The position numbers were made by a program, and so were the translations under genes. The notes below the pieces were generated by a model. It saw nothing but the letters and a program-made list of their open reading frames with translations, did not search any database and was not told where the DNA came from. Positions 423 to 9,029 of a stretch of 21,011 bases of DNA are shown here, one piece after another. How positions within the stretch are numbered: the stretch's first letter is position 1; every line of letters starts with the position of its first letter. Source of the DNA: a bacterium (GTDB taxonomy: Bacteria > JAHJDO01). The DNA lies in assembly GCA_030611945.1 (NCBI GenBank), contig JAUWOV010000024.1:1-21011 (forward strand). Direction: 5' to 3'.

Positions 423-1124
423 TCACTTTCCCAGAGCCTTCTCTTTTGACGGAGCGAGCCCGCAGGAAAACTTACCTTCAGGGCAATACCCCCGTTTCAA
501 ACATTTTGGTCCTGTCATTGAAAAAACCACCGATAATTCCTTTTTGCAGATCAATAACATCTCATACGCCAGCTTTCTTATTTCCCATTGCGCTCTTGTG
601 CAGCATCTTTCTTCAAAAAAATGTAAAAGCTCCCTTGCATTCATTGTAACTACGATCTTTGTCTCTGCCGCTTGAGGCAGAACAAATCTTGCATCCTGAG
701 ATGATGTTGCTTCTAATATTTTGTTATAAGCCTTCTGAATTTTACTCATAATATCTTTAAATTCTTTTTTTAATTTTTCATCTTTTTCAATAGAAGGAGG
801 AACTATATATTTAAAATTGTTTTCTTTCACATACCTCTGACTTTGCTGGGAATATGAAGCAATTCTGTGTCTGACAAGCTGGTGTGTTAATGCGCGCGAT
901 ACACCCTCAATGGCAAAGGTAAATTTTACATGTTCAAGAGGACTTAAGTGACCTAAACCTATTATCTTCTCTACAAATCTCTCCTGCTTGTCAGGGTCTG
1001 TTTTATTCTTAAAAATCTCTCCTGCGAATTCGGACGAATAACACTGACGCGCCGCAGAATAAATTACAGAAAGTGGGTTTTGAGTATATTCAATAAGCTC
1101 TACATTCAATTTAGCGTGTGTCAT
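423..1124 (-). CDS. thyX: flavin-dependent thymidylate synthase ThyX
   Basis: This enzyme makes dTMP from dUMP with methylenetetrahydrofolate, FAD and NAD(P)H, replacing ThyA. The 233-residue length is normal for the family. The ThyX signature RHRxxSxxxxSxR is complete at residues 85-97 (R85-H-R87, S90, S95, R97). The usual C-terminal segment with GPKCLKRGYCPEGKFSCG is present. The ATG overlaps the stop of the upstream AlbA_2-type gene as ATGA, and an AAGGAG lies 10 bases before it inside that gene, so the two were probably translationally coupled. Expression should come from the promoter near 2619-2647 and perhaps from read-through of the B12 operon. ThyX itself does not use B12, so its position between btuF and btuC is unusual. 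Confidence 0.95.
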   Translation of the reverse strand: MTHAKLNVELIEYTQNPLSVIYSAARQCYSSEFAGEIFKNKTDPDKQERFVEKIIGLGHLSPLEHVKFTFAIEGVSRALTHQLVRHRIASYSQQSQRYVKENNFKYIVPPSIEKDEKLKKEFKDIMSKIQKAYNKILEATSSQDARFVLPQAAETKIVVTMNARELLHFFEERCCTRAQWEIRKLAYEMLLICKKELSVVFSMTGPKCLKRGYCPEGKFSCGLAPSKEKALGK

Positions 1125-2514
1125 CTTCTGCCATCTCCTTTTGTTGGTTTCTTATTCGTCATATTTCGATTCTTCAACTCGCGCACTTCCCAATGCCCGC
1201 CTTTATCAGGTCCCACCCGTCGCAAACGTTTATGTTGTTTAAATGTTCGAATGTTTTTCTCAACACCAGCAACACTTAATCCAAGAGCCTTGGCGATTTC
1301 TTGCGTCGTAATAGTTGAATTGTTAGCTATGAGACGAAGAATTTTCTCCTTACTTTTCTTCTTACTTTTCTCCTTACTTTTCTGTCCACCAGCCTCCAAT
1401 CCTTTGTCTTTCTCCCATTTAGTCCGATAAAAGACCGCCACAAAACCTGTCTTGAGCCGGTTAAACTCAACCCTGACACCTACGGCAAGGCATTCATCAT
1501 GAATACGCTTAATACCGCTACCCCAACGCTCTATATCCTTAGACTTATACATCGTTTCCGCAATTAGTGGATTGCGTAAAATTGAATGTTCATGACCGGA
1601 AAAGAAATCCTCTGGATTAATCTCTTCAGGAAAAAGCCCAGGATTATAAACCTCAATCCGATCCTTAAAAATCGCAACTTCATTACCCTTAGGATTAGAA
1701 AAATCACGATGACAAAGTGAATTTCCAACCGCCTCCCGAATAGCCTCAACCGGCACTTCTGGAATTTCCTTCCGAGGGCCTCTTTTAATTTCGACGCGCC
1801 ATTTCATATGCTCATAAACATAAATCTCTGCCTGCTGGCGCAAACTAAACAGATTGCCTTTAAACTGTTTTATATCCAAAAAGGTCAGCTTATCCGTTCC
1901 TGCAAATATGGCGGCTTGAATCTCCATTTGGTTATCATCACAAAATAACACCTCAGCCGCCTGCGTCAAATATTTTCTGTCCAAAAGGTGCAGTTTGTGC
2001 AGTGTTGTTCTGACATTAACAAAATCAAAATCAACACGTTTAGCTGTTCTAGCCTTGCGCATAAACTCTTTAACAGCGTTCTCATTAACATCCGCTATTG
2101 TCTTTCGGGAAAGCTCTCTTTCCCATAAAACCCTCTTCTTCTTAGTAATCTGTTCCTCAATCTGTTTGGCAGTCATCTGTTTATCCGATTCGCCAACGCG
2201 CATATACGCCCGACCATAAGCAAAATAAGGACAATTCGCCCCCTGAAATTCAACGACAACACACTCCTTGCCCTTAATTTTTTTCGTCTCAATTTTAGGA
2301 TAAATCTTTGGTTCAAGATTATCCACAATCGTCTGCGTTACGTCCTTAATTGTATTACGTCCAACAGTCTAACAACCGTTCCATCATCCTTAATACCGAA
2401 ATACAACGCCCCATTGCCGCGCTTATTAAGAATAGCTGCAATAGACACAACTCCATTTTTAAGTTCAGTAGTGGATTTTTTAAATTCAATTGTTTCTGAT
2501 TCCCTATATGTCAT
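1121..2514 (-). pseudogene. AlbA_2 (Schlafen-type) / HATPase_c / winged-helix protein, disrupted by a frameshift
   Basis: A reading frame starts at ATG 2514 (GAGG seven bases upstream) and encodes an N-terminal AlbA_2 domain (starts MTYRESETIEFKKS; contains GNGALYFGIKDDGTVV). It leaves frame near 2365 and stops at 2338. The rest of the protein continues in another frame from about 2360 to 1121: TVGRNTIKDVTQTIVDNLEP, then a GHKL/HATPase-like region with EAVGNSLCHRDFS, then a Lys-rich linker and a C-terminal winged helix. Comparing the two frames with the family pattern G-T-V-V-G-Q-T-V-G suggests about four missing bases. The downstream piece could start only at GTG 2326, without the AlbA_2 domain. 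Proteins of this type are putative nucleic-acid-binding regulators; the exact function is unknown. An assembly error is possible. The gene has its own promoter and overlaps thyX. Confidence 0.8.
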
Positions 2515-2582
2515 CAAAAGCCTCTTTATTTTGCGTAAATTTTGTATAGAAGTAAACCCTATTCCCTTGCCCCTAATAGTAT

Positions 2583-2657: not shown

Positions 2658-3509
2658 TCAGCCTGCGATTAAAGGATGAATCAGCTTAACTATCTCCTCC
2701 AATACCTCAACAAAACTTACAGGTGTAGGACTGCAAACTTTATGTGAATCAACAATATAAATCCTGTTATTTTTTGCCGCGTTCAAGGTTTTGTACTTCT
2801 GCCACGTTTTCTTCTCTTCTTTACCCACAATGCCCATGGTCACAACAATGATCACATCAGGATTTTGCTCAAGTACTTTTTCACGGCTATAAAGACCTGT
2901 TTTTGCACCAGAAGTAATATTTATCCCGCCAGCAAACTTTATGAAGTCATTAACAAAAGAATCGCTTGTTACTGTAAATAAAGGTTTTGCTCCTATTTGA
3001 ACAAAGACTTTAGGTTTAGGTAAATCTTTGACTCTCTCAGTAATAAAATCCACCTTTTTTCTAGATTGACTGAGAATTTCCTCTGCCTCCTTTTCTTTGC
3101 CAACAATTATTCCTAGTTCTAAGAACTGGTCACAAATTTGGGAGAAACTTCCTGCAGTAGAAAAAGTAGTTACTCTTATTCCCAGATTTTTTAATTTCTC
3201 TACTTGCTCAGGATTGGTTAAGGAGGTAGCCATTACTAAATCTGGCTTAAGCATCATAATCTTTTCTAAATTTAATTTTACTACTGTCCCAACCTTTTTT
3301 TTCTTCTGCGCTTCATGAGGTTGCCTGCAATATAGAGTGTTTCCAACCAGTCTATCTTCTACTCCCAAAAGATAAAGTTCTCTAGTCAAAGAAGGGCCTA
3401 GCGAGATTATCCTTTGAGAGAAATTGTCTTCCGCATGGATTACAGAGCCCACATATGAGAACATAAGAATTGTAATAGACCAGCGTAGTAATAATTTTGA
3501 ATTTTTCAT
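2658..3509 (-). CDS. btuF: periplasmic cobalamin-binding protein BtuF-like (ABC transporter substrate-binding protein)
   Basis: A 283-residue protein with a Sec signal peptide (hydrophobic stretch about residues 8-26, likely cleavage after the Ala of SVIHA). It has the BtuF/FhuD class III binding-protein fold: RIISLGPSLTRELYLLG at the start of the first lobe, the KPDLVMA segment near residue 90, a long linking helix, and the second lobe with NPDVIIV. There is no lipobox Cys, so it is probably soluble in the periplasm rather than a lipoprotein. It would bind the corrinoid delivered by the TonB-dependent receptor and pass it to the FecCD permease. Its ATG overlaps the stop of the upstream pyrophosphatase by one base (TAATG), indicating translational coupling. 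The permease gene would normally follow directly but is about 2.2 kb away. Confidence 0.88.
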   Translation of the reverse strand: MKNSKLLLRWSITILMFSYVGSVIHAEDNFSQRIISLGPSLTRELYLLGVEDRLVGNTLYCRQPHEAQKKKKVGTVVKLNLEKIMMLKPDLVMATSLTNPEQVEKLKNLGIRVTTFSTAGSFSQICDQFLELGIIVGKEKEAEEILSQSRKKVDFITERVKDLPKPKVFVQIGAKPLFTVTSDSFVNDFIKFAGGINITSGAKTGLYSREKVLEQNPDVIIVVTMGIVGKEEKKTWQKYKTLNAAKNNRIYIVDSHKVCSPTPVSFVEVLEEIVKLIHPLIAG

Positions 3510-4168
3510 TATTGGATAAGTTCTAAAAACCAGTTTTTCTCTCTTAATATTTTCTTGCCTTTTATAAATCTCACTGGCTCCGTAAAAATAGGACCATCAT
3601 AAACAAAAGTATGGTATTCTCCATTTTCCCCGCAAATATCCACATTACCCAAGCTCTCAATATCTTTCGAAAATTCCTTATCTAGTCTTCTTCCCAACCA
3701 ATCCTCCCCTAAAAATTCAGAATTCGTAGCAACAATAATTGTTTGGAAACCAGTTTCTATAAATCTCTCCATAATTTTCTTTCTTTTTCTCTTCCATAAT
3801 GGAAATAGCGGTTTGATTTGCAATTCGTTACAAACTCTTTCTATCCAATCTCTATGCTCCTGAACATCAATATCTCCAAAAACACCAGCCTGAACATCTC
3901 TATCTTTAAGAACAGTAATGGCTTTTTTGAATTCCTCCTCATAACTTTTCCCAACAGCCTTTTGAATGATAGGAATTCCCATTGCTTCTGCCTGTAGTCT
4001 TAATAAATCCGAGCTAATTCCGTGTGAACGAGAGTGTTTACCATTTTCTGATATCATATTTAACAAATAAGAAACCTCTATATCCTTACTCTGCGCTGCC
4101 TCATAACAAGAAAGACAGCTATCTTTTCCTCCGCTCCATGAAACAAATGCTTTTATTTTTTTTATCAT
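3509..4168 (-). CDS. Dph6-like PP-loop ATP pyrophosphatase (MJ0570-related)
   Basis: A 219-residue soluble protein of the adenine-nucleotide alpha-hydrolase superfamily. The N-terminal PP-loop SGGKDS is at residues 12-17. A C-terminal ENGEYHTFVYDGPIF at 181-195 is diagnostic of the Dph6/MJ0570 group. Eukaryotic Dph6 makes diphthamide on elongation factor 2, which bacteria lack, so the bacterial members must have another substrate. Its place between a B12 receptor and btuF, coupled to btuF by a TAATG overlap and under a cobalamin riboswitch, points to a cobamide-related amidation or ligation role, but this is inference. The Shine-Dalgarno before ATG 4168 is poor. An 89-base gap separates it from the receptor gene, with no clear terminator or strong promoter. 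Confidence 0.85.
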   Translation of the reverse strand: MIKKIKAFVSWSGGKDSCLSCYEAAQSKDIEVSYLLNMISENGKHSRSHGISSDLLRLQAEAMGIPIIQKAVGKSYEEEFKKAITVLKDRDVQAGVFGDIDVQEHRDWIERVCNELQIKPLFPLWKRKRKKIMERFIETGFQTIIVATNSEFLGEDWLGRRLDKEFSKDIESLGNVDICGENGEYHTFVYDGPIFTEPVRFIKGKKILREKNWFLELIQ

Positions 4169-8103: not shown

Positions 8104-8137
8104 AAATAAAAAAAGCCCAATCTTCGCAGATTGAGCT
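8104..8137 (-). terminator. intrinsic terminator of the cobalamin-riboswitch leader
   Basis: On the minus strand AGCTCAATCT and AGATTGGGCT form a 10-bp stem (one G-U pair) around a short GCGA loop, followed directly by seven U and further U-rich sequence. It lies between aptamer and exbB. Its 3' arm plus U tract (8110-8118, GGGCTTTTT) is also complementary over 9 bases (one G-U) to AAAGAGCCC at 8206-8198 inside the aptamer's 3' part. That gives a ready antiterminator when the aptamer is not folded. Confidence 0.88.
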
Positions 8138-8157
8138 CTCCATTATAAAAAACTTTC

Positions 8158-8280
8158 CCCTTTCCACGAAGGTACTTACCTAAACAGGCAATGGCCCGGG
8201 CTCTTTCAGAATCTCTGAAAATTACCGTTGCGGGACAGCGCCCAGAATCTCACTGGGACTTCCTTTGCCTCCCCGGCTAA
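8158..8280 (-). promoter_or_regulatory. cobalamin riboswitch aptamer
   Basis: The minus strand carries the conserved adenosylcobalamin-riboswitch core: AAAGGAAG, then TCCCAGTGAGATTCTGGG (the P4-like stem with GTGAGAUU loop), then CGCTGTCCCGCAACGGT. A degenerate B12 box, AGCCCGGGCCATTGCC, follows. AGGCAA (8270-8265) pairs with TTGCCT (8191-8186) to close the aptamer. A CCTT/AAGG hairpin at 8159-8172 is placed where the kissing loop usually lies, but its complementarity to the core loop is short. The 5' P1-P2 extension of the classical type is not obvious. Cobalamin binding should favour the terminator at 8104-8137 and shut off the operon. Confidence 0.9.
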
Positions 8281-8306
8281 AAACTAATTTTTAAAAGAAC
8301 AATTTA

Positions 8307-8339
8307 AACCCCGTTAGAAAACCCTTTCTAAGCGGGGTA
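8307..8339 (-). other. stable hairpin at the 5' end of the riboswitch transcript
   Basis: On the minus strand ACCCCG, a bulged C and TTAGAAA pair with TTTCTAA and CGGGGT, giving 13 pairs with a short loop. No U tract follows, so it is not an intrinsic terminator. With the promoter at 8350-8377 it would begin about 4 bases after the transcript start. It may protect the 5' end or be a peripheral helix of the riboswitch. Confidence 0.6.
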
Positions 8340-8349
8340 AATTCGCTGA

Positions 8350-8377
8350 ATTGTAACACTATTAATTTGTATGTCTA
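8350..8377 (-). promoter_or_regulatory. promoter of the riboswitch-exbB operon (in repeat copy A)
   Basis: On the minus strand TAGACA (8377-8372) and TACAAT (8355-8350) are separated by 16 bases. Each box has one mismatch to the sigma70 consensus. The expected start near 8343 would give a leader holding the 5' hairpin, the cobalamin aptamer and the terminator. The same boxes with the same spacing occur in the second repeat copy, upstream of the DUF4160 gene. Confidence 0.65.
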
Positions 8378-8410
8378 TAACAGATTTGCATATTTTTAGT
8401 AATATCTTGC
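8350..8410. repeat. 61-bp direct repeat, copy A
   Basis: This 61-bp stretch matches 8897-8957 in the same orientation at 54 of 61 positions, and all seven differences are transitions. It runs from the -10 box of the B12-operon promoter to the stop codon of the DUF2442 gene. The two copies exactly bracket the DUF4160-DUF2442 cassette. Confidence 0.92.
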
Positions 8411-8652
8411 TAATTAAATGCAAGCAAACTCTCTACTGAGATGTCTTCGTCTATTGCTTCCCAGTGAATACCAATTCCTCCGCCAATAAGCCGCCAATTT
8501 TGCCGCTGTTTATCTGTGGCGTCTCTAAGTCGGGGAAACCACTCCATAGGAACAGAGACTTCACGTCCATCCGCAAGAATAACATAAACGGAATCTCTTA
8601 CAAAAGATACATCTGTAACTAACGGTTCTATTTCAACTGCTAAAGTGCTCAT
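8410..8652 (-). CDS. DUF2442 domain protein, partner of DUF4160
   Basis: An 80-residue small protein starting MSTLAVEIEP. The ATG at 8652 is preferred because AGGAG lies seven bases upstream; a longer TTG start at 8667 has no such site. The body matches DUF2442: VTDVSFVRDSVYVILADGREVSVPM-type strand pairs, then WFPRLRDAT, and the characteristic WRLIGGGIGIHWEAIDEDISVESLL end. It overlaps the end of the DUF4160 gene by 20 bases, so the pair is cotranscribed. DUF4160-DUF2442 pairs recur as small two-gene units in bacteria and have been suspected of being toxin-antitoxin-like. Which partner would be toxic, and whether either is, cannot be told from sequence. The stop codon touches repeat copy A. 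Confidence 0.85.
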   Translation of the reverse strand: MSTLAVEIEPLVTDVSFVRDSVYVILADGREVSVPMEWFPRLRDATDKQRQNWRLIGGGIGIHWEAIDEDISVESLLAFN

Positions 8653-8869
8653 TCCATTTCTCCTCAAATATTTGCTTATTCTCTTTAACTAATCTCCCAA
8701 TTTCAAATAATTCATGACTTCTGAAACAATGATTGCGAGCTAGTGACACCGGATTAAGCCAAAACTTAGCGTAGCTCCCTGCACGTTCAACATGAATATG
8801 TATAGGCTCACTATCATCAATACTAAAAAAGAAGAACCGATATCCATTTTTTCTCAAAACCGTGGGCAT
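8633..8869 (-). CDS. DUF4160 domain protein
   Basis: A 78-residue protein beginning MPTVLRKNGYRFFFFS, the standard DUF4160 N terminus. It continues with EPIHIHVERAGSYAKFWLNPVSLA and ends with an ELFEIGRLVKENKQ helix and WNEHF, all typical of the family. The ATG at 8869 is chosen over a GTG at 8878: the AGGA upstream is about ten bases from this ATG and too close to the GTG, and family members start at MPT. It is first in a two-gene unit with DUF2442. Its promoter lies in repeat copy B (8897-8924), leaving a leader of roughly 20 bases. The His-containing EPxHIHV motif is the most conserved part of the family; the biochemical role is unknown. Confidence 0.87.
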   Translation of the reverse strand: MPTVLRKNGYRFFFFSIDDSEPIHIHVERAGSYAKFWLNPVSLARNHCFRSHELFEIGRLVKENKQIFEEKWNEHFSS

Positions 8870-8896
8870 TATAATCACGTCCTAAATATAAAATTT

Positions 8897-8924
8897 ATTG
8901 TAACACTACTAATTTGTATGTCTA
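8897..8924 (-). promoter_or_regulatory. promoter of the DUF4160-DUF2442 pair (in repeat copy B)
   Basis: TAGACA (8924-8919) and TACAAT (8902-8897) on the minus strand, 16 bases apart, are identical to the boxes in copy A. The start is expected near 8890, about 20 bases before the DUF4160 ATG. Confidence 0.65.
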
Positions 8925-8957
8925 TAACAGATTTGTGTATTTTTGATAATATTTTAC
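8897..8957. repeat. 61-bp direct repeat, copy B
   Basis: This is the partner of 8350-8410, in the same orientation and offset by 547 bp. Recombination between the copies would excise the DUF4160-DUF2442 cassette and leave a single promoter in front of the riboswitch operon. Confidence 0.92.
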
Positions 8958-8998
8958 AATTTTACCACTACTCTTTTTTCAAAGCAAGTATTCTGTCG

Positions 8999-9029
8999 GC
9001 TGAATTGTATAATTTCTGTAATATCTTGC
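8999..9029. repeat. internally deleted third copy of the repeat (candidate)
   Basis: The ends of this 31-bp stretch, gctgaattgta and gtaatatcttgc, both match the outer ends of the copy A region (8345-8410) exactly, but about 35 internal bases, including the -35 box, are missing. It lies just after the gspF stop. The match is short, so it is tentative. Confidence 0.4.

Follow-up and report, generated by a model that had tools for sequence, protein, structure and literature searches.

We consider it likely that a 61-bp unit present twice in the 21,011-nucleotide stretch of bacterial DNA analysed here (the window) is the B12-operon promoter of its genus, that copy A drives an operon under an AdoCbl (cobalamin) riboswitch, and that copy B, on an older site, drives a toxin-antitoxin-like DUF4160-DUF2442 gene pair. 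The features concerned are listed in Table 1.

Table 1. Features of the repeat locus, in window coordinates
Feature	Position	Strand	Details
Copy A, 61-bp promoter unit	8350..8410	-	TAGACA 8377-8372, 16 nt, TACAAT 8355-8350, extended TG
Copy B, 61-bp promoter unit 5' of DUF4160	8897..8957	-	transcription start expected at ~8890
Copy C, internally deleted relic without -35 region	8999..9029	-	GCAAGATATTAC-9 nt-ACAATTCAGC
Upstream flank of copy B	8958..9006	-	homologous to flank of riboswitch promoter G002:C1
DUF4160 gene, toxin-like, DhiT-type pair	8633..8869	-	78 aa from ATG 8869; PF13711, 62.7 bits, E 3.8e-17
DUF2442 gene, antitoxin-like	8410..8652	-	80 aa from ATG 8652; PF10387, 83 bits, E 1.8e-23
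GC-rich hairpin in leader, between copy A and riboswitch	8308..8337	-	-16.3 kcal/mol, z -3.7
AdoCbl (cobalamin) riboswitch aptamer	8147..8290	-	RF01482
Terminator-like hairpin and T-run 3' of aptamer	8110..8141	-	conserved in relatives

A promoter-like unit at the cobalamin riboswitches of the genus

As originally predicted, copies A and B are identical at 54 of 61 positions, with all seven mismatches (7/7) being transitions and a longest exact run of 26 bp, and each contains TAGACA and TACAAT hexamers 16 nt apart on the minus strand; both also carry a TG before the -10 and match the consensus at 10/12 positions. They form the top-scoring pair of 61-mers in the window; the runner-up (45/61) comes from the 5' ends of two pilin-like genes, and in 20 first-order Markov simulations of the whole sequence no pair exceeded 40/61. 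A third full copy was not found in the genome from which the window derives (1.66 Mb, 91% complete). Scanning the window with the promoter consensus returned 3 sites against 3.7 expected from shuffling, and as this is not above chance, support for promoter function rests on comparison with relatives.

Our comparison set comprised five species genomes of the phylum, all from one genus. The unit is found directly upstream, in the same orientation, of all five cobalamin riboswitches detected in the genus (5/5), which represent two Rfam families and four species. This arrangement is present in G002, G003 and G004, and contig C1 of G002 carries a second, more diverged unit 5' of a different cobalamin riboswitch (L037, 3998-4304; RF00174, 103 bits), so that one promoter type is associated with two riboswitch families. 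Neither unit nor cobalamin riboswitch was found in G001, which is 62% complete. No comparable matches occur away from these sites in the genus genomes, and copy B is the sole riboswitch-free occurrence of the unit among the five. Between species the unit is 59/61 and 56/61 identical, compared with only 12/30 and 15/30 in the 30 nt upstream; indels occur in the leader, and the aptamer shows the conservation expected of it. The -35, the -10 and the 16-nt spacing are retained in every A-type copy, the -10 reading TATAAT in G004 and on contig C119 of G002. The unit therefore shows, conserved across orthologues, the -35 and -10 hexamers 16-18 nt apart that characterise sigma-70-type promoters, and its assignment as an extended-TG, sigma-70-like promoter of the B12-riboswitch transcripts is well supported by these sequence comparisons. 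This agrees with the promoter reading first put forward, and the related genomes do not show the unit scattered without relation to promoters, a pattern that had been named as contrary to it. The start sites and activity of the copies are predicted, with transcription from copy A expected to begin at around 8343. For a little-studied phylum, this provides a testable signature, shared across a genus, of the promoters of B12-riboswitch operons.

The tight flanking of a small toxin-antitoxin-like pair by direct repeats, together with the nearby relic copy C, could also suggest that the repeat mobilises cassettes, as a MITE-type mobile element or as an attC- or dif-like site for site-specific recombination. 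This is very improbable given that the genome contains only two full copies, that none is located away from riboswitches in relatives, that viral contigs contain no match to the unit, and that the -35 and -10 are conserved at fixed spacing; the sole match outside the genus in the genome collection is not close to a riboswitch and is consistent with chance. A mobile repeat was rejected as a candidate, as many copies in unrelated places were not found.

An AT-rich part is located toward the upstream end of the unit, and the conservation seen upstream of the -35, in units that precede two riboswitch families, prompts us to ask whether protein-level control might also exist. The unit might bind a regulator responsive to B12 status, giving DNA-level control of the riboswitch operons, in which case copy B would bring the toxin-antitoxin-like pair into the same regulon. 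We regard this as improbable; were it true, growth control via the pair would track B12 supply.

The DUF4160-DUF2442 pair behind copy B

The two genes are adjacent, with DUF4160 first and a 20-nt overlap, which is the layout of DhiTA, and the Pfam scores in Table 1 uphold their original identification; NCBIfam has no name for either small protein. DhiTA (DUF4160/DUF2442) of Dickeya dadantii is a type II toxin-antitoxin system (PMC8198452), and on Thermus plasmids a DUF4160-DUF2442 module (the PEM module) stabilises plasmids (PMC12724237). Toxicity of the first protein and its neutralisation by the second have been shown only in these relatives (PMC8198452, PMC12724237), and toxin and antitoxin functions are predicted here. 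The pair in the window resembles DhiTA and PEM in combining the same two Pfam families, with the toxin gene first and a short overlap; unlike them, it lies behind a promoter unit that is otherwise found only at cobalamin riboswitches.

Copy B is positioned to drive this pair, as had been proposed. Its -10 is followed by AAATTTTATATTTAGGACGTGATTATAATG, which gives 27 nt up to the DUF4160 ATG, and a Shine-Dalgarno-like AGGA is located 10 nt 5' of this codon. The leader separating copy B from DUF4160 is unstructured, and no riboswitch or remnant of one was found in it by an Rfam search. As a further promoter site of the copy A type, copy B would transcribe both genes via a riboswitch-free leader of ~20 nt. 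Since the unit occurs in relatives only before B12 riboswitches, the pair seems to be expressed from a copy of the B12-operon promoter, and with a leader that lacks the riboswitch it would be transcribed without B12 control. At the other end of the cassette, the DUF2442 stop codon (TAG, 8412-8410) reaches into the margin of copy A. Relatives carry TAG at the equivalent position (AAAATAGCAAG), so this stop may have been supplied by the flank of the promoter; even so, the protein is of full length (80 versus 81 aa).

A Legionella plasmid carries a homologous pair (60% and 58% identity) that has the same 20-nt overlap and adjoins a Tn3 transposase, and DUF2442 was not found in G002-G004, which points to horizontal arrival; the pair was probably acquired in this way. 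Among phages, only distant relatives of the cassette were found, in a single Erwinia phage record and a single viral contig. A second DUF4160-DUF2442 pair is encoded on contig C10 of the window's genome, without the promoter unit.

DhiTA of Dickeya represses its own promoter (PMC8198452), and by extension the unit could be an operator of the DUF4160-DUF2442 complex, through which the pair represses both itself and the B12 operon. The presence of the unit in G002-G004, which have no DUF2442, and its absence from the C10 pair make this highly unlikely. The order of events that we favour is that a DhiTA-type pair was placed behind a pre-existing promoter, copy B, which would provide an example of an incoming toxin-antitoxin pair coming under a copy of a host promoter.

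Origin of the repeat copies

At 59/61, the G003 copy resembles copy A more than copy B does (54/61). The upstream flank of copy B shares ~45 bp with that of the riboswitch promoter on G002:C1 (90% over 48 bp, E 6e-11; 32/39 across the flank). This sequence is missing from all A-type loci, and in a search for it as a general repeat, G002:C1 was the only convincing match. The greater closeness of A to G003, combined with the homology of the B flank to another riboswitch locus, indicates that copy B probably stands on an older, separate promoter site that predates the present arrangement. The original prediction of a simple, recent tandem duplication, in which the cassette landed beside A and copy B was derived from A as a private promoter, is not borne out by these comparisons and appears rather unlikely. 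It would fit the near-identity of A and B over a 33-nt core (32/33) and the restriction of mismatches to transitions, and an accelerated rate of change in B following duplication could account for the closeness of A to G003, but not for the flank of B, which is its own.

The core of copy B is only 21/33 identical to G002:C1. With an A-like core and a C1-like flank, copy B looks mosaic, as would result from gene conversion from A or from divergence of C1. Because core and flank differ in history, duplication, gene conversion and relaxed change in B are inseparable. Just upstream of B is copy C, which is absent from the original prediction and retains both ends of the A unit, having an exact 12-mer and 10-mer in common with copy A. 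A similar arrangement occurred in 0/20,000 simulated 150-nt stretches. The presence of this relic beside A and B points to a locus with a history of repeated promoter copies on which, in the reading we prefer, B is the older site now used by the pair.

Related genomes were searched, as had been suggested, for an instance of this locus lacking the cassette, and none was found; when the T2SSF neighbour was used as query, the only matches were paralogues of 31-37% identity. In cassette-free relatives the upstream neighbour of the riboswitch is a feoB-like gene, as opposed to a T2SS gene in the window, so these do not represent the same locus. A search of G000 and G001 for the feoB-like neighbour, run without a positive control, found no match. 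It is possible that recombination between the repeats, the longest exact run of which is given above, leads to clean excision of the cassette, although this is putative and an excised form (one repeat, no cassette) was not found.

The riboswitch operon and neighbouring genes

Copy A would drive the AdoCbl-riboswitch operon exbB-exbD-tonB-TonB-dependent receptor, together with DUF71-type and btuF-like genes if the operon extends that far. The riboswitch match (46.6 bits, E 3.4e-7) is slightly under the Rfam gathering score of 50, but is believable since the orthologous riboswitches of relatives score 46-50.5, the G002 orthologue reaching 50.5. The terminator-like hairpin is likely to be the expression platform of the riboswitch. 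The GC-rich hairpin in the leader is not present in the orthologous leaders of relatives and is unique in the genome; possible roles are shielding of the riboswitch from cassette read-through or protection of the 5' end.

In common with B12-uptake operons controlled by AdoCbl (RF01482) or Cobalamin (RF00174) riboswitches, the aptamer is followed by a terminator-like hairpin, with exbB, exbD, tonB, TonB-dependent receptor and btuF-like genes downstream. What differs here is a conserved 61-bp promoter unit that is common to two riboswitch families in the genus and has an additional riboswitch-free copy. A literature search on this combination returned nothing relevant. Each component belongs to a known type, and the arrangement is a case of modest genome tinkering.

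The btuF-like gene in the B12 region adjoins a DUF71/COG2102 (Diphthami_syn_2) gene (3509-4168, minus strand), a family for which a role in B12 salvage has been predicted (PMC3541065). An unexpected gene comes first in the B12 operon of three relatives (L027, L028 and L029, near 430-1265): immediately downstream of the riboswitch, it codes for a pilin-like protein whose N-terminal methylation-type motif was recognised by eye. Elsewhere in the window, a Schlafen/AlbA_2-HATPase_c_4 regulator-like gene (1121-2517, minus strand) is split, with AlbA_2 profile positions 1-48 in the ORF at 2338-2517 and 65-118 in that at 1121-2326, which suggests a frameshift or an assembly error.
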